Of a DNA stretch of 58,937 nucleotides, positions 1-5,380 are shown one piece after another. The position numbers and the translations under genes were made by a program. Origin of the DNA: Candidatus Dadabacteria bacterium (lineage in GTDB: Bacteria > Desulfobacterota_D > UBA1144 > Nemesobacterales > JADFKM01); the NCBI GenBank assembly GCA_022564935.1, contig JADFKM010000005.1:1-58937 (forward strand). The letters run 5' to 3'. Positions within the stretch are counted from its first letter, which is position 1; each line of letters opens with the position of its first letter. The notes beneath the pieces were generated by a model. The model did not search any database. It saw only the letters and a list, made by a program, of their open reading frames with translations, and had not been told where the DNA came from.

Positions 1-290
1 ATACATCCCGAACCCGCCTGCGGATTAGTCGAATCATTGAAATCCCAGGCGCCCGCCACTATAGATGTCGCCCATTGCTGCACCGTTGCCGAATCCCCTC
101 CGTCATGTATGAGCGACGGTATGCCGCTAAAAGCTATGTTCTGATTCATCGCCGTTCCGAAATCATCATTTAAGAATGGGTGAAACTCTGGTCTAAACTG
201 TAAGAACCTCTCATTTAATACAATCGCACCAACATGCCTACCACTAGCAGTCGTAAAAGGATGAACGTGTTGTTCCACCTCTTTAGCTCC
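1..290 (-). CDS. Partial ORF running off the window start; phage/virion-like structural protein fragment (tentative)
   Basis: Manual translation of the minus strand gives an open frame EGKGAKEVEQHVHPFTTASGRHVGAIVLNERFLQFRPEFHPFLNDDFGTAMNQNIAFSGIPSLIHDGGDSATVQQWATSIVAGAWDFNDSTNPQAGSG. It is absent from the ORF track because it has no end in the window. The MNQNxxFSGxPxxIHxGG...W...WDF pattern resembles marine phage/metagenomic structural proteins from memory. Confidence 0.4.
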
Positions 291-403
291 CTTTCCTTCC
301 CGACGGCCCGTATCTTACCCTCCGCGATGAGCACGGCGCCCTTGCTTATGGGTTTTGAGCTTATGGGAAGCACGGTTCCTGCCGTTATTAATGTATGGTT
401 CAT
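215..403 (-). pseudogene. N-terminal fragment of an amidohydrolase (cytosine deaminase/chlorohydrolase-like)
   Basis: MNHTLITAGTVLPISSKPISKGAVLIAEGKIRAVGKEREL matches the typical amidohydrolase N-terminal beta-sandwich; homology stops abruptly after GKEREL and no HxH metal site follows. Confidence 0.6.
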
Positions 404-440: not shown

Positions 441-1307
441 TTATAGCTTTTCGAGAAGCTCGTCGCTGATTACCCCGCCCATCACCTCCTCGACCGGCCC
501 CCTCATCTTTATCGACCAGTCTTCCCTTACCTCTATATCCAGCTCGCCGCCGGGCATCGACACGGTCAGGCTCTTATCGGTAAGGCCGTTCTTGACGCAG
601 GCCGCCGCCACTGCGCAGGAGCTGCTCCCTGAGGCAAGAGTATAACCGGCGCCGCGCTCCCAAATGAGTATCTCTACGCGCCGTGTGGTGCGTACCTTTG
701 CGAACTGTACATTTATGCGCTCCGGGAATAGCCGGTGTGTTTCGAGCAGGGGGGCCATCTTGCGAAGGCGCCCCTCGTCAAGCACCTCAATGAACACAAC
801 GCAGTGGGGGTTCCCGACCGATACCCCCGTAAATATCATAACATCGCCATCCACCGTTATCTCTTCCCCGACCACTTCCCTTTCGGCCCCTGTTACGGGA
901 ATGAGTTTGCTGTTAAAAGTGGCTTTACCCATCTCCACAGTAACGAATTTTACCTTCCCGCCGGATACCTCGAGGGCTGCCTCTACCCTGCCCCCGGGAG
1001 TGTCTATAGTGAAAATCTCTTTATCCGTGTAGCCGTGCTCGTAGAGGAACTTGGCGAGAATCCTGATACCGTTTCCGCTCTTTTGCGCTTCGCTCCCGTC
1101 GGGGTTGAGGATTCTGAGTCCGAAATCCGCCTCCTCGGAACGGGTAAGGAGCAGGATTCCGTCCGAGCCGATGCCGTAGTTCCTCGAGCATAGTAGCTCG
1201 ATCGAGGAGCGTGTTAATTGGAACGACAGTTTTTCGCCGTCGAGTACTATGTAGTCATTTCCCAAACCGTGGGACTTTACAAACTGGTTCATATCGGCTC
1301 TCGTCAA
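441..1307 (-). CDS. dapF: Diaminopimelate epimerase family protein (both catalytic Cys positions read as Ser)
   Basis: DapF-like fold motifs HGLGNDYIVLD, NPDGSEAQKSGNGIR, ERGAGYTLASGSSSCAVAAA; alternative start at the second Met. Confidence 0.8.
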   Translation of the reverse strand: MTRADMNQFVKSHGLGNDYIVLDGEKLSFQLTRSSIELLCSRNYGIGSDGILLLTRSEEADFGLRILNPDGSEAQKSGNGIRILAKFLYEHGYTDKEIFTIDTPGGRVEAALEVSGGKVKFVTVEMGKATFNSKLIPVTGAEREVVGEEITVDGDVMIFTGVSVGNPHCVVFIEVLDEGRLRKMAPLLETHRLFPERINVQFAKVRTTRRVEILIWERGAGYTLASGSSSCAVAAACVKNGLTDKSLTVSMPGGELDIEVREDWSIKMRGPVEEVMGGVISDELLEKL

Positions 1308-1517
1308 TGCGGGATTACCCGGTCGGGGGAAGCCGGAGAACTCATTATATCGTAATAGCTTCCCTTAGAATATGACGAAACAAAATCCTAAAACATTTAT
1401 CCGAAATTTCAACCTGGCACGCTGCGCAGCGGCGGCCCCGGGAATTTGACAAATTATCAAATGACGTTAAATATCTACTGTTCGTTCATGACAACAAATT
1501 CAGTAGGAGGAGACGAG

Positions 1518-2276
1518 ATGATAAAAGACCTTTATGACGTGAGCGGGAAAGTCGCCGTAGTAACCGGGAGCTCAAGAGGCATTGGCAAGGCCATTGCTCT
1601 AGCCCTTGCCGAGGGAGGAGCGGACATAGTGGTCAATTACAACAGGAGCGATGAACAGGCCGACGCGGTGAAAAAAGATATAGAAGCCATGGGCAGAAAG
1701 TGTATCACGGTAAGGGGAAACGTAGGGAACTTCCAGCAGGCTCAGGCCATAGGCAAGGCGGCCCTAACCCATTTCGGCAAAGTGGACATTCTGATTAACA
1801 ATGCGGGGGTCAACCGAGATAGGACCATCAGGAGGATGACCCCGGAGCAGTGGAACGAGGTTATTGAAACCAACCTCTCGAGCTGCTTTAACTGTACCAA
1901 GGCGGTTCTTGAGTCGATGCTCGAGCAGGGGGAAGGGGTGATAGTATCTGTGTCTTCGATCATAGGAGAAATGGGCAACCCCGGACAGGCCAACTACGCC
2001 TCTACAAAGGCGGGTATTATGGGCTTCACAAAGAGCCTCGCCAAGGAGCTTGCCAGAAACAACATCAGGGTCAACGCCATTGCCCCGGGCTTTGTAGAGA
2101 CCGATATGCTCAGCACTGTGCCTAAGGATATAAGGGAGCAGATTAAAAAGGACATTGCTCTGGGCAGGTTCGGCTCGCCTGAGGAAGTAGCGCTTGCGGT
2201 GCTTTTCCTGTGCTCTCCCGCGGCGAAGTGGATTACCGGAATTACGCTGAGGATGAACGGCGGACATTATATTTAA
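1518..2276 (+). CDS. SDR-family 3-oxoacyl-ACP / acetoacetyl-CoA reductase (FabG/PhaB-like)
   Basis: TGSSRGIGKA Rossmann motif, NNAG, YxxxK (YASTK), C-terminal MNGGHYI; start chosen at ATG 1518 after AGGAGGAGA. The ORF track begins at 1446. Confidence 0.88.
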   Translation: MIKDLYDVSGKVAVVTGSSRGIGKAIALALAEGGADIVVNYNRSDEQADAVKKDIEAMGRKCITVRGNVGNFQQAQAIGKAALTHFGKVDILINNAGVNRDRTIRRMTPEQWNEVIETNLSSCFNCTKAVLESMLEQGEGVIVSVSSIIGEMGNPGQANYASTKAGIMGFTKSLAKELARNNIRVNAIAPGFVETDMLSTVPKDIREQIKKDIALGRFGSPEEVALAVLFLCSPAAKWITGITLRMNGGHYI

Positions 2277-2353
2277 TCAGCATACGCTCAAGTGAATGTG
2301 TGTTCCCTAAAATAGGGTTGGTTCGAGGTGTGAGCGCACAAACGCTTGCTTCT

Positions 2354-3418
2354 TTATACCGACCTTTCACCCACCCACCCTGCGACTTCGGGCCAGAGGG
2401 TCTTCAGGCACCTGCTGCTTACGGAAAGCCCTATGTGGCCTGAGGGGAAAACGATCGTTTTTGAATCTTTACTCGACGTAAGGTCGTTGAAGCCGATGCT
2501 GGACTCGGGAGGCACCAAGTGGTCTTTTTCGGCCACAAGGTTTAGAACCGGACACGTTATGTTCCCTAAATTCACCGTCCGTCCGTTGATTTTCAGCTTG
2601 TTCTGAATTAAAAGGTTGTCCTGGTAGCAGTATTTGATGAACTCTCTGAATACCTCGCCCGCAACGGGTATGTTGTCGCCGAGCCACGCTTCCATCGCAA
2701 GGAAGTTTTCAACGAAGTTGTCGTTCTCTATGTTCTCGTAAAAGCTTAAGTACTTTGACACCAGGTTCTGCACCGGCTTCATGAAGAGGAAACCGATCTG
2801 GAGGAACTCGGGCGGGACGTTCCCGTGGGCGTCGACGAACTTATCGACGTCAAAGTTGGGCTTGTCCCCCCAGAGCTTAAGCATTCCGTCCACTTTGAAA
2901 TCGATCCCCGCCGCCATGAGAATCAGGGTGTTGATGTCTTCGGGATGGAGAGCGGTGTACATGGCCGACATTGTTCCGCCCATGCAGTATCCAAGGAGGT
3001 TCACCTTATCGCTTCCCGAAATACGTTTGGCCTTCTCCACAGCCTTCTTGATATAGCGGTTCACATAGTGGTTCATATTGAGGTGACAGTCTTCATCTCC
3101 GGGCACTCCCCAGTCGATGAGATACGTGTCCATTCCGTGCTTCAGAAGCACTTCCACGACACTTTTTCCGGGCTTCAGGTCGAGTATATACGAACGGTTA
3201 ATCAAGGCGAAGACCATTACCAGCGGAACGGGGCACTGTTCTTCAGTCTGGGACGTGTAGTGGAGGAGCTTCATTTTGTTCTCTGTGAATACTACCTCGT
3301 GAGGTGTGATTCCGAGCTTGAGGTCCGGGGGATTAAGAACCAGCTCCGCCCCTTTCGACAGCTTGTGTTTCAGTTTTTCTGCTTCAGCGACCAAGAATTC
3401 CCAATTCTTTGTGGACAT
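2354..3418 (-). CDS. phaC: Class III poly(R)-hydroxyalkanoate synthase subunit PhaC
   Basis: Lipase-like box GYCMGG, DWGVPGDED, VAEKDHLVPP, SGHIGL; length about 354 aa, typical of class III/IV PhaC. Confidence 0.9.
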   Translation of the reverse strand: MSTKNWEFLVAEAEKLKHKLSKGAELVLNPPDLKLGITPHEVVFTENKMKLLHYTSQTEEQCPVPLVMVFALINRSYILDLKPGKSVVEVLLKHGMDTYLIDWGVPGDEDCHLNMNHYVNRYIKKAVEKAKRISGSDKVNLLGYCMGGTMSAMYTALHPEDINTLILMAAGIDFKVDGMLKLWGDKPNFDVDKFVDAHGNVPPEFLQIGFLFMKPVQNLVSKYLSFYENIENDNFVENFLAMEAWLGDNIPVAGEVFREFIKYCYQDNLLIQNKLKINGRTVNLGNITCPVLNLVAEKDHLVPPESSIGFNDLTSSKDSKTIVFPSGHIGLSVSSRCLKTLWPEVAGWVGERSV

Positions 3419-3623
3419 TTTTTATTCTCACCTCCAAATCGTTAGCGGCCTCCAATATGAATATTAAACCTAATACCATCGACATTATCAAAACGCTGAG
3501 TCGGCAAAATAGAGAGGAATCTTTGGGATACCCGAGTTCTTGCGCCGGAATGGAGCGAACTTGGTGCACTCTTTGAAGTATCCGGGAAGTATCCGGGCAC
3601 CTTGCATGTCCCCCACAGGAAAG

Positions 3624-4061
3624 CTATTTCTTTCTATAGGAGTTCAATTCATCCACTTTGTCAATGAGGTCATTGACCTTCTCTTCTATCTTATTTATCG
3701 CCGCCAGCGCCTTGTTGACGTCTCCTTTTGTGGGCATATGCATGGTCTTGAGGCTTCGTTCGATAACCTGGTCAAAGTACTTTTTGAGCTCAGAAGATCT
3801 TTCAATCCCTTTTCCGACTGTGGCCGAGAAATAAGGCGTTTTTAGCCACGATTCCAGCGCCTCAGACAGGTTCTGTTCCCAAACACTATAGAACTTCTTG
3901 TAATATGATTTGGGGTCTACCTCAGAGTTCCCGTCTTTATTTGAGGGTGATTCGGTAAAAGGGCTTTTAGACCACAACTTAAACGTTTCGTCTATGGTCT
4001 TTTCCCATATCCCAAATAAGTTCTTATAAAACTGTTTCTGATCGAAATTTTCGGTGCTCAT
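3624..4061 (-). CDS. Small PhaE-like protein with an internally duplicated WE...W module
   Basis: Upstream of phaC on the same strand; contains FYKNLFGIWEKTIDETFKLWSKSPF and YYKKFYSVWEQNLSEALESWLKTPYF; C-terminal MPTKGDVNKALAAINKIEEKVNDLIDKVDEL is PhaE-like. Confidence 0.55.
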   Translation of the reverse strand: MSTENFDQKQFYKNLFGIWEKTIDETFKLWSKSPFTESPSNKDGNSEVDPKSYYKKFYSVWEQNLSEALESWLKTPYFSATVGKGIERSSELKKYFDQVIERSLKTMHMPTKGDVNKALAAINKIEEKVNDLIDKVDELNSYRKK

Positions 4062-4573
4062 TCGCTCTTCCTCCGTGTTTTCGGTGTTTTGGCTTTGCTT
4101 TTTGGTTTCGCAGCGGCGGGCTTTGCCTGCTCTAGATTTGCTTTTGTTTTCTTTGCCGTCTTCGCTTCGGTTGATTTAGAGCCTTTCCTGGATTTTTTGG
4201 CGGGCTCTTTTACTTTTAAGGTTTCAATATCTTCGATCCTCTCCGAGAGTCTCGATAGCTTGTCCTCCAGGTTGTCAAGCGACTCGGCTATCCTGTCGAA
4301 ATCATTTTTCATCGGCAGGTACTTATTTTTAAGCGTGCGCTCCATGATCTCATACATGTAGTCCTTAAATTCCTGGGCTTTCTTTACGGCGCTCTGGGCG
4401 CTCGCGGCGCTTGCCGGACTCTTTAACCAAAGCTCCAGGGCATTGGACATGGACTTTTCCCAGCTTTCGTAAAGCTTTTTGAAGTAATTGAGATAATAAG
4501 TTTCCCCTTCCGTTCTTTTATCAGCCATTGGCCCCTCCTTAATGTGTGTTTGCAGGATAGTTTCCCTATTCAT
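4058..4573 (-). CDS. Small PhaE-like protein with a Lys/Ala/Pro-rich C-terminal tail
   Basis: YYLNYFKKLYESWEKSMSNALELWLKSPAS module, coiled-coil region, then AKKSRKGSKSTEAKTAKKTKANLEQAKPAAAKPKSKAKTPKTRRKSE (histone H1/PhaF-like tail); overlaps the next gene by 4 nt. Confidence 0.55.
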   Translation of the reverse strand: MNRETILQTHIKEGPMADKRTEGETYYLNYFKKLYESWEKSMSNALELWLKSPASAASAQSAVKKAQEFKDYMYEIMERTLKNKYLPMKNDFDRIAESLDNLEDKLSRLSERIEDIETLKVKEPAKKSRKGSKSTEAKTAKKTKANLEQAKPAAAKPKSKAKTPKTRRKSE

Positions 4574-4633
4574 TAAGAGCGTATATAGCCTGAATGTTTG
4601 AAGCGCGTACAGGGAAATTCTACCCTTTAAACA

Positions 4634-5032
4634 TCATACATTAAAGAGCTTCAGGTAACCCTCAAGCACTCCGATAGCCCTTTCAGCCGTTTTTTGTGTG
4701 ATGGCTAAGGAGTTCTTTGTAGCCACGTCTGAAGCGCGTCTCAGCACACCCACGAAGTTGTTCTGTGCGTTGAGGATGTTGTCCAGGTTTGCACTGAACT
4801 GCTCTGCGTTTAGCTCCTTGGGGAGTTTGTCGTAAGCGACCTTCAGCCCGCCGGCGCCTTCTTTCTGTATAGAAAGTAGGTAATCAAACTGGGTGTTCAG
4901 CAGCTTCTGGTTTTCCTCCATAAGGGAAACCGCGGTCTTGAGGCTAAGGAGGTAATTGTCCTTCACAAGACCGCTGAAGTCTTTAAAAGCCTCCGTGAAC
5001 TCATCTACTTTTGTTTCTTTTTGTACAGCCAC
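4634..5032 (-). CDS. Phasin family protein
   Basis: NYLLSLKTAVSLMEENQKLLNTQFDYLL...NFVGVLRRASDVATKNSLAITQKTAERAIGVLEGYLKLF amphipathic helical protein; GTG start at 5032 preceded by AGGAGGT. Confidence 0.65.
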   Translation of the reverse strand: MAVQKETKVDEFTEAFKDFSGLVKDNYLLSLKTAVSLMEENQKLLNTQFDYLLSIQKEGAGGLKVAYDKLPKELNAEQFSANLDNILNAQNNFVGVLRRASDVATKNSLAITQKTAERAIGVLEGYLKLFNV

Positions 5033-5058
5033 TGTTCTGTACCTCCTGCTTTTTGTAA

Positions 5059-5088
5059 ATAATATAACCAGCATTGAAAGATTGTCAA
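5059..5088 (-). promoter_or_regulatory. Putative sigma70 promoter of the phasin/PhaE-like/PhaC gene set
   Basis: Minus-strand TTGACA (5083-5088), 18-nt spacer, TATTAT (5059-5064), about 27 nt upstream of the GTG start at 5032. Confidence 0.65.
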
Positions 5089-5380
5089 GGGTATTTCTTC
5101 GCAGTTGCAATATATTATAAACCAATTATAACAGTTGGTTAGAATTTTTTTGCTAAAAAATATTGGCACTTGCAAAATGAGTCGCCCCTGCTCTCAGCTT
5201 TTTCAGTAGTTCTTTGCCAGGTTTTCTCATTGAACGGGCTCAGCTCATTATCGCTTTTAGTCACCACTGTCCGAATCGAAGCACTGCCTTTCCGTAGCCG
5301 AGCGTAAAGTGCCCGGTGCGAGGTGCTGAGGTGTTGCCGGCTTAATATTTGTAGCTGTAAAGGGAGGCGGTCTGAACTAA

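Follow-up and report, generated by a model that had tools for sequence, protein, structure and literature searches.

We identified in the window (the whole 58,937-nucleotide stretch of DNA analysed) a dapF-like gene whose predicted product carries serine at the two positions that are catalytic cysteines in diaminopimelate (DAP) epimerase, and comparison with related sequences indicates that this Ser/Ser DapF is a real, ancient and widespread variant. Canonical DapF works with a thiol/thiolate pair flanking the alpha carbon (PMC12039745, PMC8142540). We consider it probable, though well short of certain, that the clade to which the window protein belongs is a working DAP epimerase in which a serine pair, or serine-assisted catalysis, replaces the thiols.

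Results

Both catalytic cysteines are replaced by serine in a DapF homologue

The Ser/Ser-type dapF-like gene was assigned by profile matches to positions 441..1292 of the minus strand, on which all codons given below also lie, and encodes 283 amino acids from an ATG. The open frame itself covers 441-1307 of the same strand and yields 288 amino acids if read from an upstream TTG; however, the ATG at 1290-1292 is probably the start because homologues begin at the Met of MNxFVKSHG, and a GAGAG lies just 5' of this ATG. Residues of the window protein (Ser77, Ser226 and so on) are numbered from the TTG, that is, in the 288-amino-acid version. The window protein matched the TIGR00652 DapF profile over its full length with 243 bits, about twice the cut-off of 114.65, and PF01678 with 193 bits in two stretches representing two repeats, while searching the PDB sequences with it returned 17 DapF-type matches.

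The protein departs from DapF at the two catalytic cysteines of [M]CGNG and ACGTG, where it has Ser77 and Ser226. Alignment to H. influenzae DapF (PDB 2q9h and 2q9j, both engineered Ser mutants of that enzyme) placed Ser77 (codon AGC, 1077..1079) opposite Cys73 and Ser226 (codon TCA, 630..632) opposite Cys217, and the wild-type PDB entries 2otn, 3ejx and 9mro had Cys at both positions in the three printed alignments. The reading of both catalytic cysteines as serine in the 441-1307 homologue, proposed in the initial annotation, was thus borne out by alignment and profiles, and so was its position for the first serine codon (1077-1079), but the second had been placed at 627-629, which encodes Gly227. 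The alignments left no shift by which other cysteines could take the catalytic positions, as had been envisaged there, and no Cys substitutes. A displaced catalytic Cys was rejected as a candidate, given that the sole cysteine near the second site, Cys231, occupies a position that is Cys in many Cys/Cys DapFs as well. As far as sequence can tell, the window protein is probably a Ser/Ser variant working like DapF rather than a canonical two-cysteine DapF.

The serine pair was present in all 49 sequences read from the window's class (the window protein and 48 others, with identity down to about 47%), every one of which also contained the motifs KSGNG and ASGSSSC. Ser77 was always encoded by AGY and Ser226 always by TCN in these 49 sequences, with third bases varying, and the codons of both residues are one base away from a Cys codon. 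This pattern is consistent with one ancient change per site and strong selection since. By contrast, Ser77 is encoded by TCC instead of AGY in L079, a clade member from outside the class; moving between the two codon types takes two base changes, which suggests selection for serine itself.

The Ser/Ser form defines a single clade within and beyond the class

Of the 58 genomes in the window's class, 55 gave a DapF match, each as a single copy. A search of 386 genomes with the clade profile, the majority not belonging to the class, recovered the same Ser/Ser form from nine outside genomes (L079-L083 and L085-L088). These nine sequences and those of the class formed one clade with a support of 100/99 in the full-alignment tree, and support remained at 100/97 once the columns surrounding the two catalytic positions had been taken out, so that the distinct subfamily argued for in the initial annotation corresponds to a single well-supported clade. 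Some outside members nested beside subgroups of the class, suggesting horizontal transfer of the Ser/Ser dapF. The Ser/Ser form was the sole DapF match in eight of the nine outside genomes; the exception was the cyanobacterium-like G103, which also has a Cys/Cys DapF (L196) closely resembling that of Anabaena (562 bits). A 2-isopropylmalate synthase gene lies about 0.5 kb from the Ser/Ser dapF of G103, and this genome represents a natural case of both forms together.

Serine at the catalytic positions was also seen in DapFs read from further lineages, namely six natural Cys/Ser forms (L092, L118, L126, L120, L133 and L128), the Ser/Cys forms L189 and L192, and the further Ser/Ser forms L188 and L190 with a different signature. 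Each of these other Ser variants was the sole DapF match in its genome, and all seven tested passed the DapF model. They occupied separate tree branches and possessed neither Lys76 nor Ser229. The tree requires 7 to 8 state changes in all, a number made inexact by long branches, and on this topology natural loss of catalytic Cys in DapF is a repeated event. L190 also has Gln at the conserved His168.

Residues beside the catalytic pair are changed while DAP-binding residues are kept

To define the signature of the clade, its 58 sequences were compared with 70 Cys/Cys DapFs. Lys76 (1080..1082), beside the first catalytic position, was found in 58/58 clade sequences and in 0/70 Cys/Cys DapFs, 57 of which have Met there. 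Gln201 (705..707) was likewise common to all 58 clade sequences, against Glu in 56 of the 70. In the stretch Ser228-Ser229-Ser230 (618..626), Ser229 was present throughout the clade (58/58) whereas Gly was present in 70/70 Cys/Cys DapFs, Ser228 took the place of a Thr found in 61/70, and position 230 was mostly Ser in contrast to Ala in 64/70. Finally, the clade has Ile83 where 68/70 Cys/Cys DapFs have Cys. The alpha-carboxylate is bound in solved DapFs by the Thr at position 228 (PMC12039745). With few positions differing from Cys/Cys DapFs, the catalytic site of the clade appears to have been re-tuned around the Ser pair.

Distal DAP is bound in Anabaena DapF by Asn66, Asn164, Asn197, Glu215 and Arg216 (PMC12039745). 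The equivalent residues, mapped from that paper, are Asn68 (1104..1106), Asn166 (810-812), Asn199 (711-713) and the pair Glu217-Arg218 (654..659); all of these predicted distal-DAP binders are kept in the window protein and invariant in the clade, which argues against a change of substrate. Asn17 and His168 were kept across the clade as well, save one unresolved X each. The scaffold, which the initial annotation called intact, is therefore so with respect to substrate binding, but several positions beside the catalytic pair have been altered too.

The Ser/Ser protein is the only visible candidate epimerase in a meso-DAP pathway

DapA was present in the class, although it was not found in the incomplete genome G000, and LL-DAP aminotransferase (DapL) scored above its curated cut-off in most class genomes, G000 among them. 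LysA was found in 57/58 class genomes. MurE was also present, and its DNPR motif, which we take to be that of meso-DAP-adding MurE, appeared in 5/5 sequences read, including that of G000. By contrast, meso-DAP dehydrogenase (Ddh) was absent from 61/61 genomes under a search that gave matches in control genomes known to have it. No second DapF was found in the window genome, where only one PF01678 protein was detected, in agreement with the earlier supposition of a sole copy, and a check of 11 class genomes revealed no proline-racemase paralogue, weak matches being to the DapF-like family itself. MurI was present in 11/11 class genomes checked and retained its Cys pair in 2/2 read, indicating that the replacement of Cys by Ser is confined to DapF and does not reflect a general avoidance of catalytic Cys.

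DapL produces LL-DAP and LysA requires meso-DAP, so an epimerase is required unless Ddh is present. Within the genomes searched, no candidate other than the Ser/Ser protein is visible for converting LL-DAP to meso-DAP in the class, where it stands alongside a DAP/lysine route of DapA, DapL, LysA and MurE. The check for a second DapF or a DapL that had been proposed thus yielded DapL, yet no bypass of DapF, because the LL-DAP that DapL makes would still need an epimerase and the true bypass, Ddh, is missing. To state that the meso-DAP route needs rethinking went too far: the route itself appears ordinary, and it is the epimerase whose chemistry has to be reconsidered. A LysA match also accompanied the Ser/Ser DapF in 9/9 outside genomes, above cut-off in 7; lysA, dapA and dapB lie close together in G260, and lysA lies with dapA in G140. 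In G290 (L087:4557-7008) the next gene after the Ser/Ser dapF is lysA-like and scores just below the LysA cut-off.

Genes flanking dapF

The gene 3' of dapF in relatives encodes an amidohydrolase, and its first 42 codons were recognised at 278..403 on the minus strand of the window. It starts at 401-403 and matches its family for these 42 codons until the frame departs from the family at about 278, beyond which the remaining sequence up to the contig end gives an unrelated frame; the break reflects an insertion or else a chimera at the end of the contig. This amidohydrolase is nearest the aminofutalosine deaminase family, below the cut-off of that family, and is consistently found next to dapF on its downstream side in the class (e.g. 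L004:175-1416 and L040:3726-4961). Its neighbourhood gave no functional lead. An apparent polyhydroxyalkanoate cluster occupies 1446-5125 of the window, of which the FabG/PhaB-type reductase alone was profile-scanned, a PhaC-like frame (2354-3418) and small phasin-like frames (3624-5125) having been recognised by sequence reading.

Discussion

There is a good case for a DAP epimerase role of the Ser/Ser protein. As we picture it, the enzyme would convert LL-DAP to meso-DAP, which would feed lysine via LysA and peptidoglycan via MurE, with a normal DapF fold (predicted by profile) and a normal DAP-binding site retained. The thiol/thiolate Cys pair would have been swapped in the clade ancestor for two serines at the same positions, and these would remove and return the alpha proton while the changed neighbours do the tuning. 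An altered mechanism in the Ser/Ser subfamily, as the initial annotation proposed, is plausible. We favour two-base proton transfer by the serine pair; its main rival is catalysis by another group with the serines assisting. That serine is the direct acid/base is among the least certain points, a little better than evenly placed, and so is the tuning of the serine pair by Lys76, Ser228-Ser229 and Gln201. The fullest form of the proposal is evenly poised between right and wrong: a thiol-free, cofactor-free DapF lineage in which the hydroxyls of two serines, set in a re-tuned site, would move the DAP alpha proton and serve cell wall and lysine in the whole class and several other lineages. An AlphaFold2 single-sequence model (pLDDT 43, pTM 0.30) was too poor for active-site geometry.

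Engineered enzymes count against the epimerase reading. Single Cys-to-Ser mutants of PddB have <0.1% activity (PMC8225329), the same near-loss applies to M. tuberculosis DapF as cited by the PddB authors (PMC8225329), and activity of Cys-to-Ser mutants of HisR is strongly reduced (PMC11602996). In nature, a 4-hydroxyproline 2-epimerase with a Ser/Cys pair performs the two-base reaction (PMC4113996), and an aspartate/glutamate racemase with one Cys replaced by Thr works, irreversibly (PMC8142540). Further points against our best reading are the presence of both DapF forms in G103, where the Ser/Ser protein may do something else, and the finding of an amidohydrolase, not a DAP gene, as the neighbour in the class.

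The alternative that fares best keeps the protein as a DAP epimerase but assigns proton transfer to Lys76, His168, Glu217 or ordered water, leaving the serines only to hold the substrate; we regard it as unlikely. As an acid/base, the hydroxyl of serine is much inferior to a thiol, and this poor basicity speaks for such a transfer, as do the strict association of Lys76 with the clade, right beside Ser77, and the alteration of Ser229 and Gln201 along with the Ser pair. However, His168 and Glu217 are identical in Cys/Cys enzymes and thus represent no new solution, the independent Ser/Ser DapFs L188 and L190 do without Lys76 and Ser229, and the loop that carries position 76 bends round the substrate in solved DapFs with no direct contact to it (PMC12039745).

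It is quite doubtful that the protein has departed from DAP chemistry to become a different racemase, epimerase or isomerase, as was suggested in the initial annotation. All distal-DAP-specific residues are kept, the lysine/meso-DAP route is present around the gene, and the LysA and MurE of the class would otherwise have no DAP epimerase in view. Models of other racemases scored poorly: the CntK/HisR model NF033599 (CntK being a histidine racemase) gave no match to the window protein at E 0.001 and 18.9 bits versus 300 on the G103 copy, and the bifunctional DapF/glutamate racemase model NF038284 gave 62 bits versus 350, with MurI present in the class. A different enzyme would nevertheless agree with the loss of both catalytic cysteines, the second, Cys/Cys DapF of G103, the resemblance of the class neighbour to aminofutalosine deaminase and the neighbouring 2-isopropylmalate synthase in G103 and G189.

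An inactive or barely active relic, in a class living without an epimerase (with an LL-DAP wall and imported lysine) or with an unrelated one, is improbable. The near-dead engineered Ser mutants of relatives described above would fit such a relic, but the gene is intact and conserved in 49/49 class sequences to about 47% identity with invariant active-site residues, LysA and DNPR-type MurE are retained, and the TCC codon for Ser77 in one clade member points to selection for serine. Sequencing or assembly error at both codons, which the fragmented assembly of the window genome (88.6% completeness) might have invited and the initial annotation had named as a risk, is already refuted, together with a pseudogene, by the same residues in 58 consistent clade sequences, each from its own genome, of several lineages.

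Standard teaching presents amino-acid racemases that need no cofactor as thiol/thiolate enzymes, and Cys-to-Ser mutants serve as near-dead controls. A working Ser/Ser DapF would challenge this textbook two-cysteine mechanism and, if true, would mean that serine can do racemase chemistry when the site is tuned for serine. Thiol-directed DapF inhibitors such as aziDAP should then fail on Ser/Ser enzymes, annotation by cysteine motif would overlook real enzymes, and the natural series of Cys/Cys, Cys/Ser, Ser/Cys and Ser/Ser forms would make the removal of a proton of pKa about 29 testable. No description of a natural Ser-type DapF was found in the open-access literature searched.

Among known systems, the proline racemase superfamily (4-hydroxyproline epimerase B9JQV3, Ser/Cys; trans-3-hydroxyproline dehydratase B9K4G4; Ser/Cys and Ser/Thr pairs) resembles the clade in having natural Ser at the first catalytic position, but it is another family with another substrate, and its pairs in the accessible portion of that source are Ser/Cys and Ser/Thr, with no Ser/Ser seen (PMC4113996). 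The proline racemase profile PF05544 matched residues 50-129 only, with 29 bits against a cut-off of 27, and thus not the full length of the window protein. CntK, HisR, O-ureidoserine racemase and the Dab racemase PddB have the DapF-like fold and cofactor-free racemisation in common with the clade while acting on other substrates; unlike the Ser/Ser clade, HisR (PMC11602996) and PddB (PMC8225329) need their own Cys pair. DapF itself (EC 5.1.1.7; H. influenzae 1gqz/2gke, Anabaena 9mro, chloroplast 3ejx, and 2otn) shares with the clade its profile family, a full-length alignment, the DAP-binding residues and the pathway context, and differs from it by the serines at both cysteine positions together with Lys76, Ile83, Gln201 and Ser228-229.
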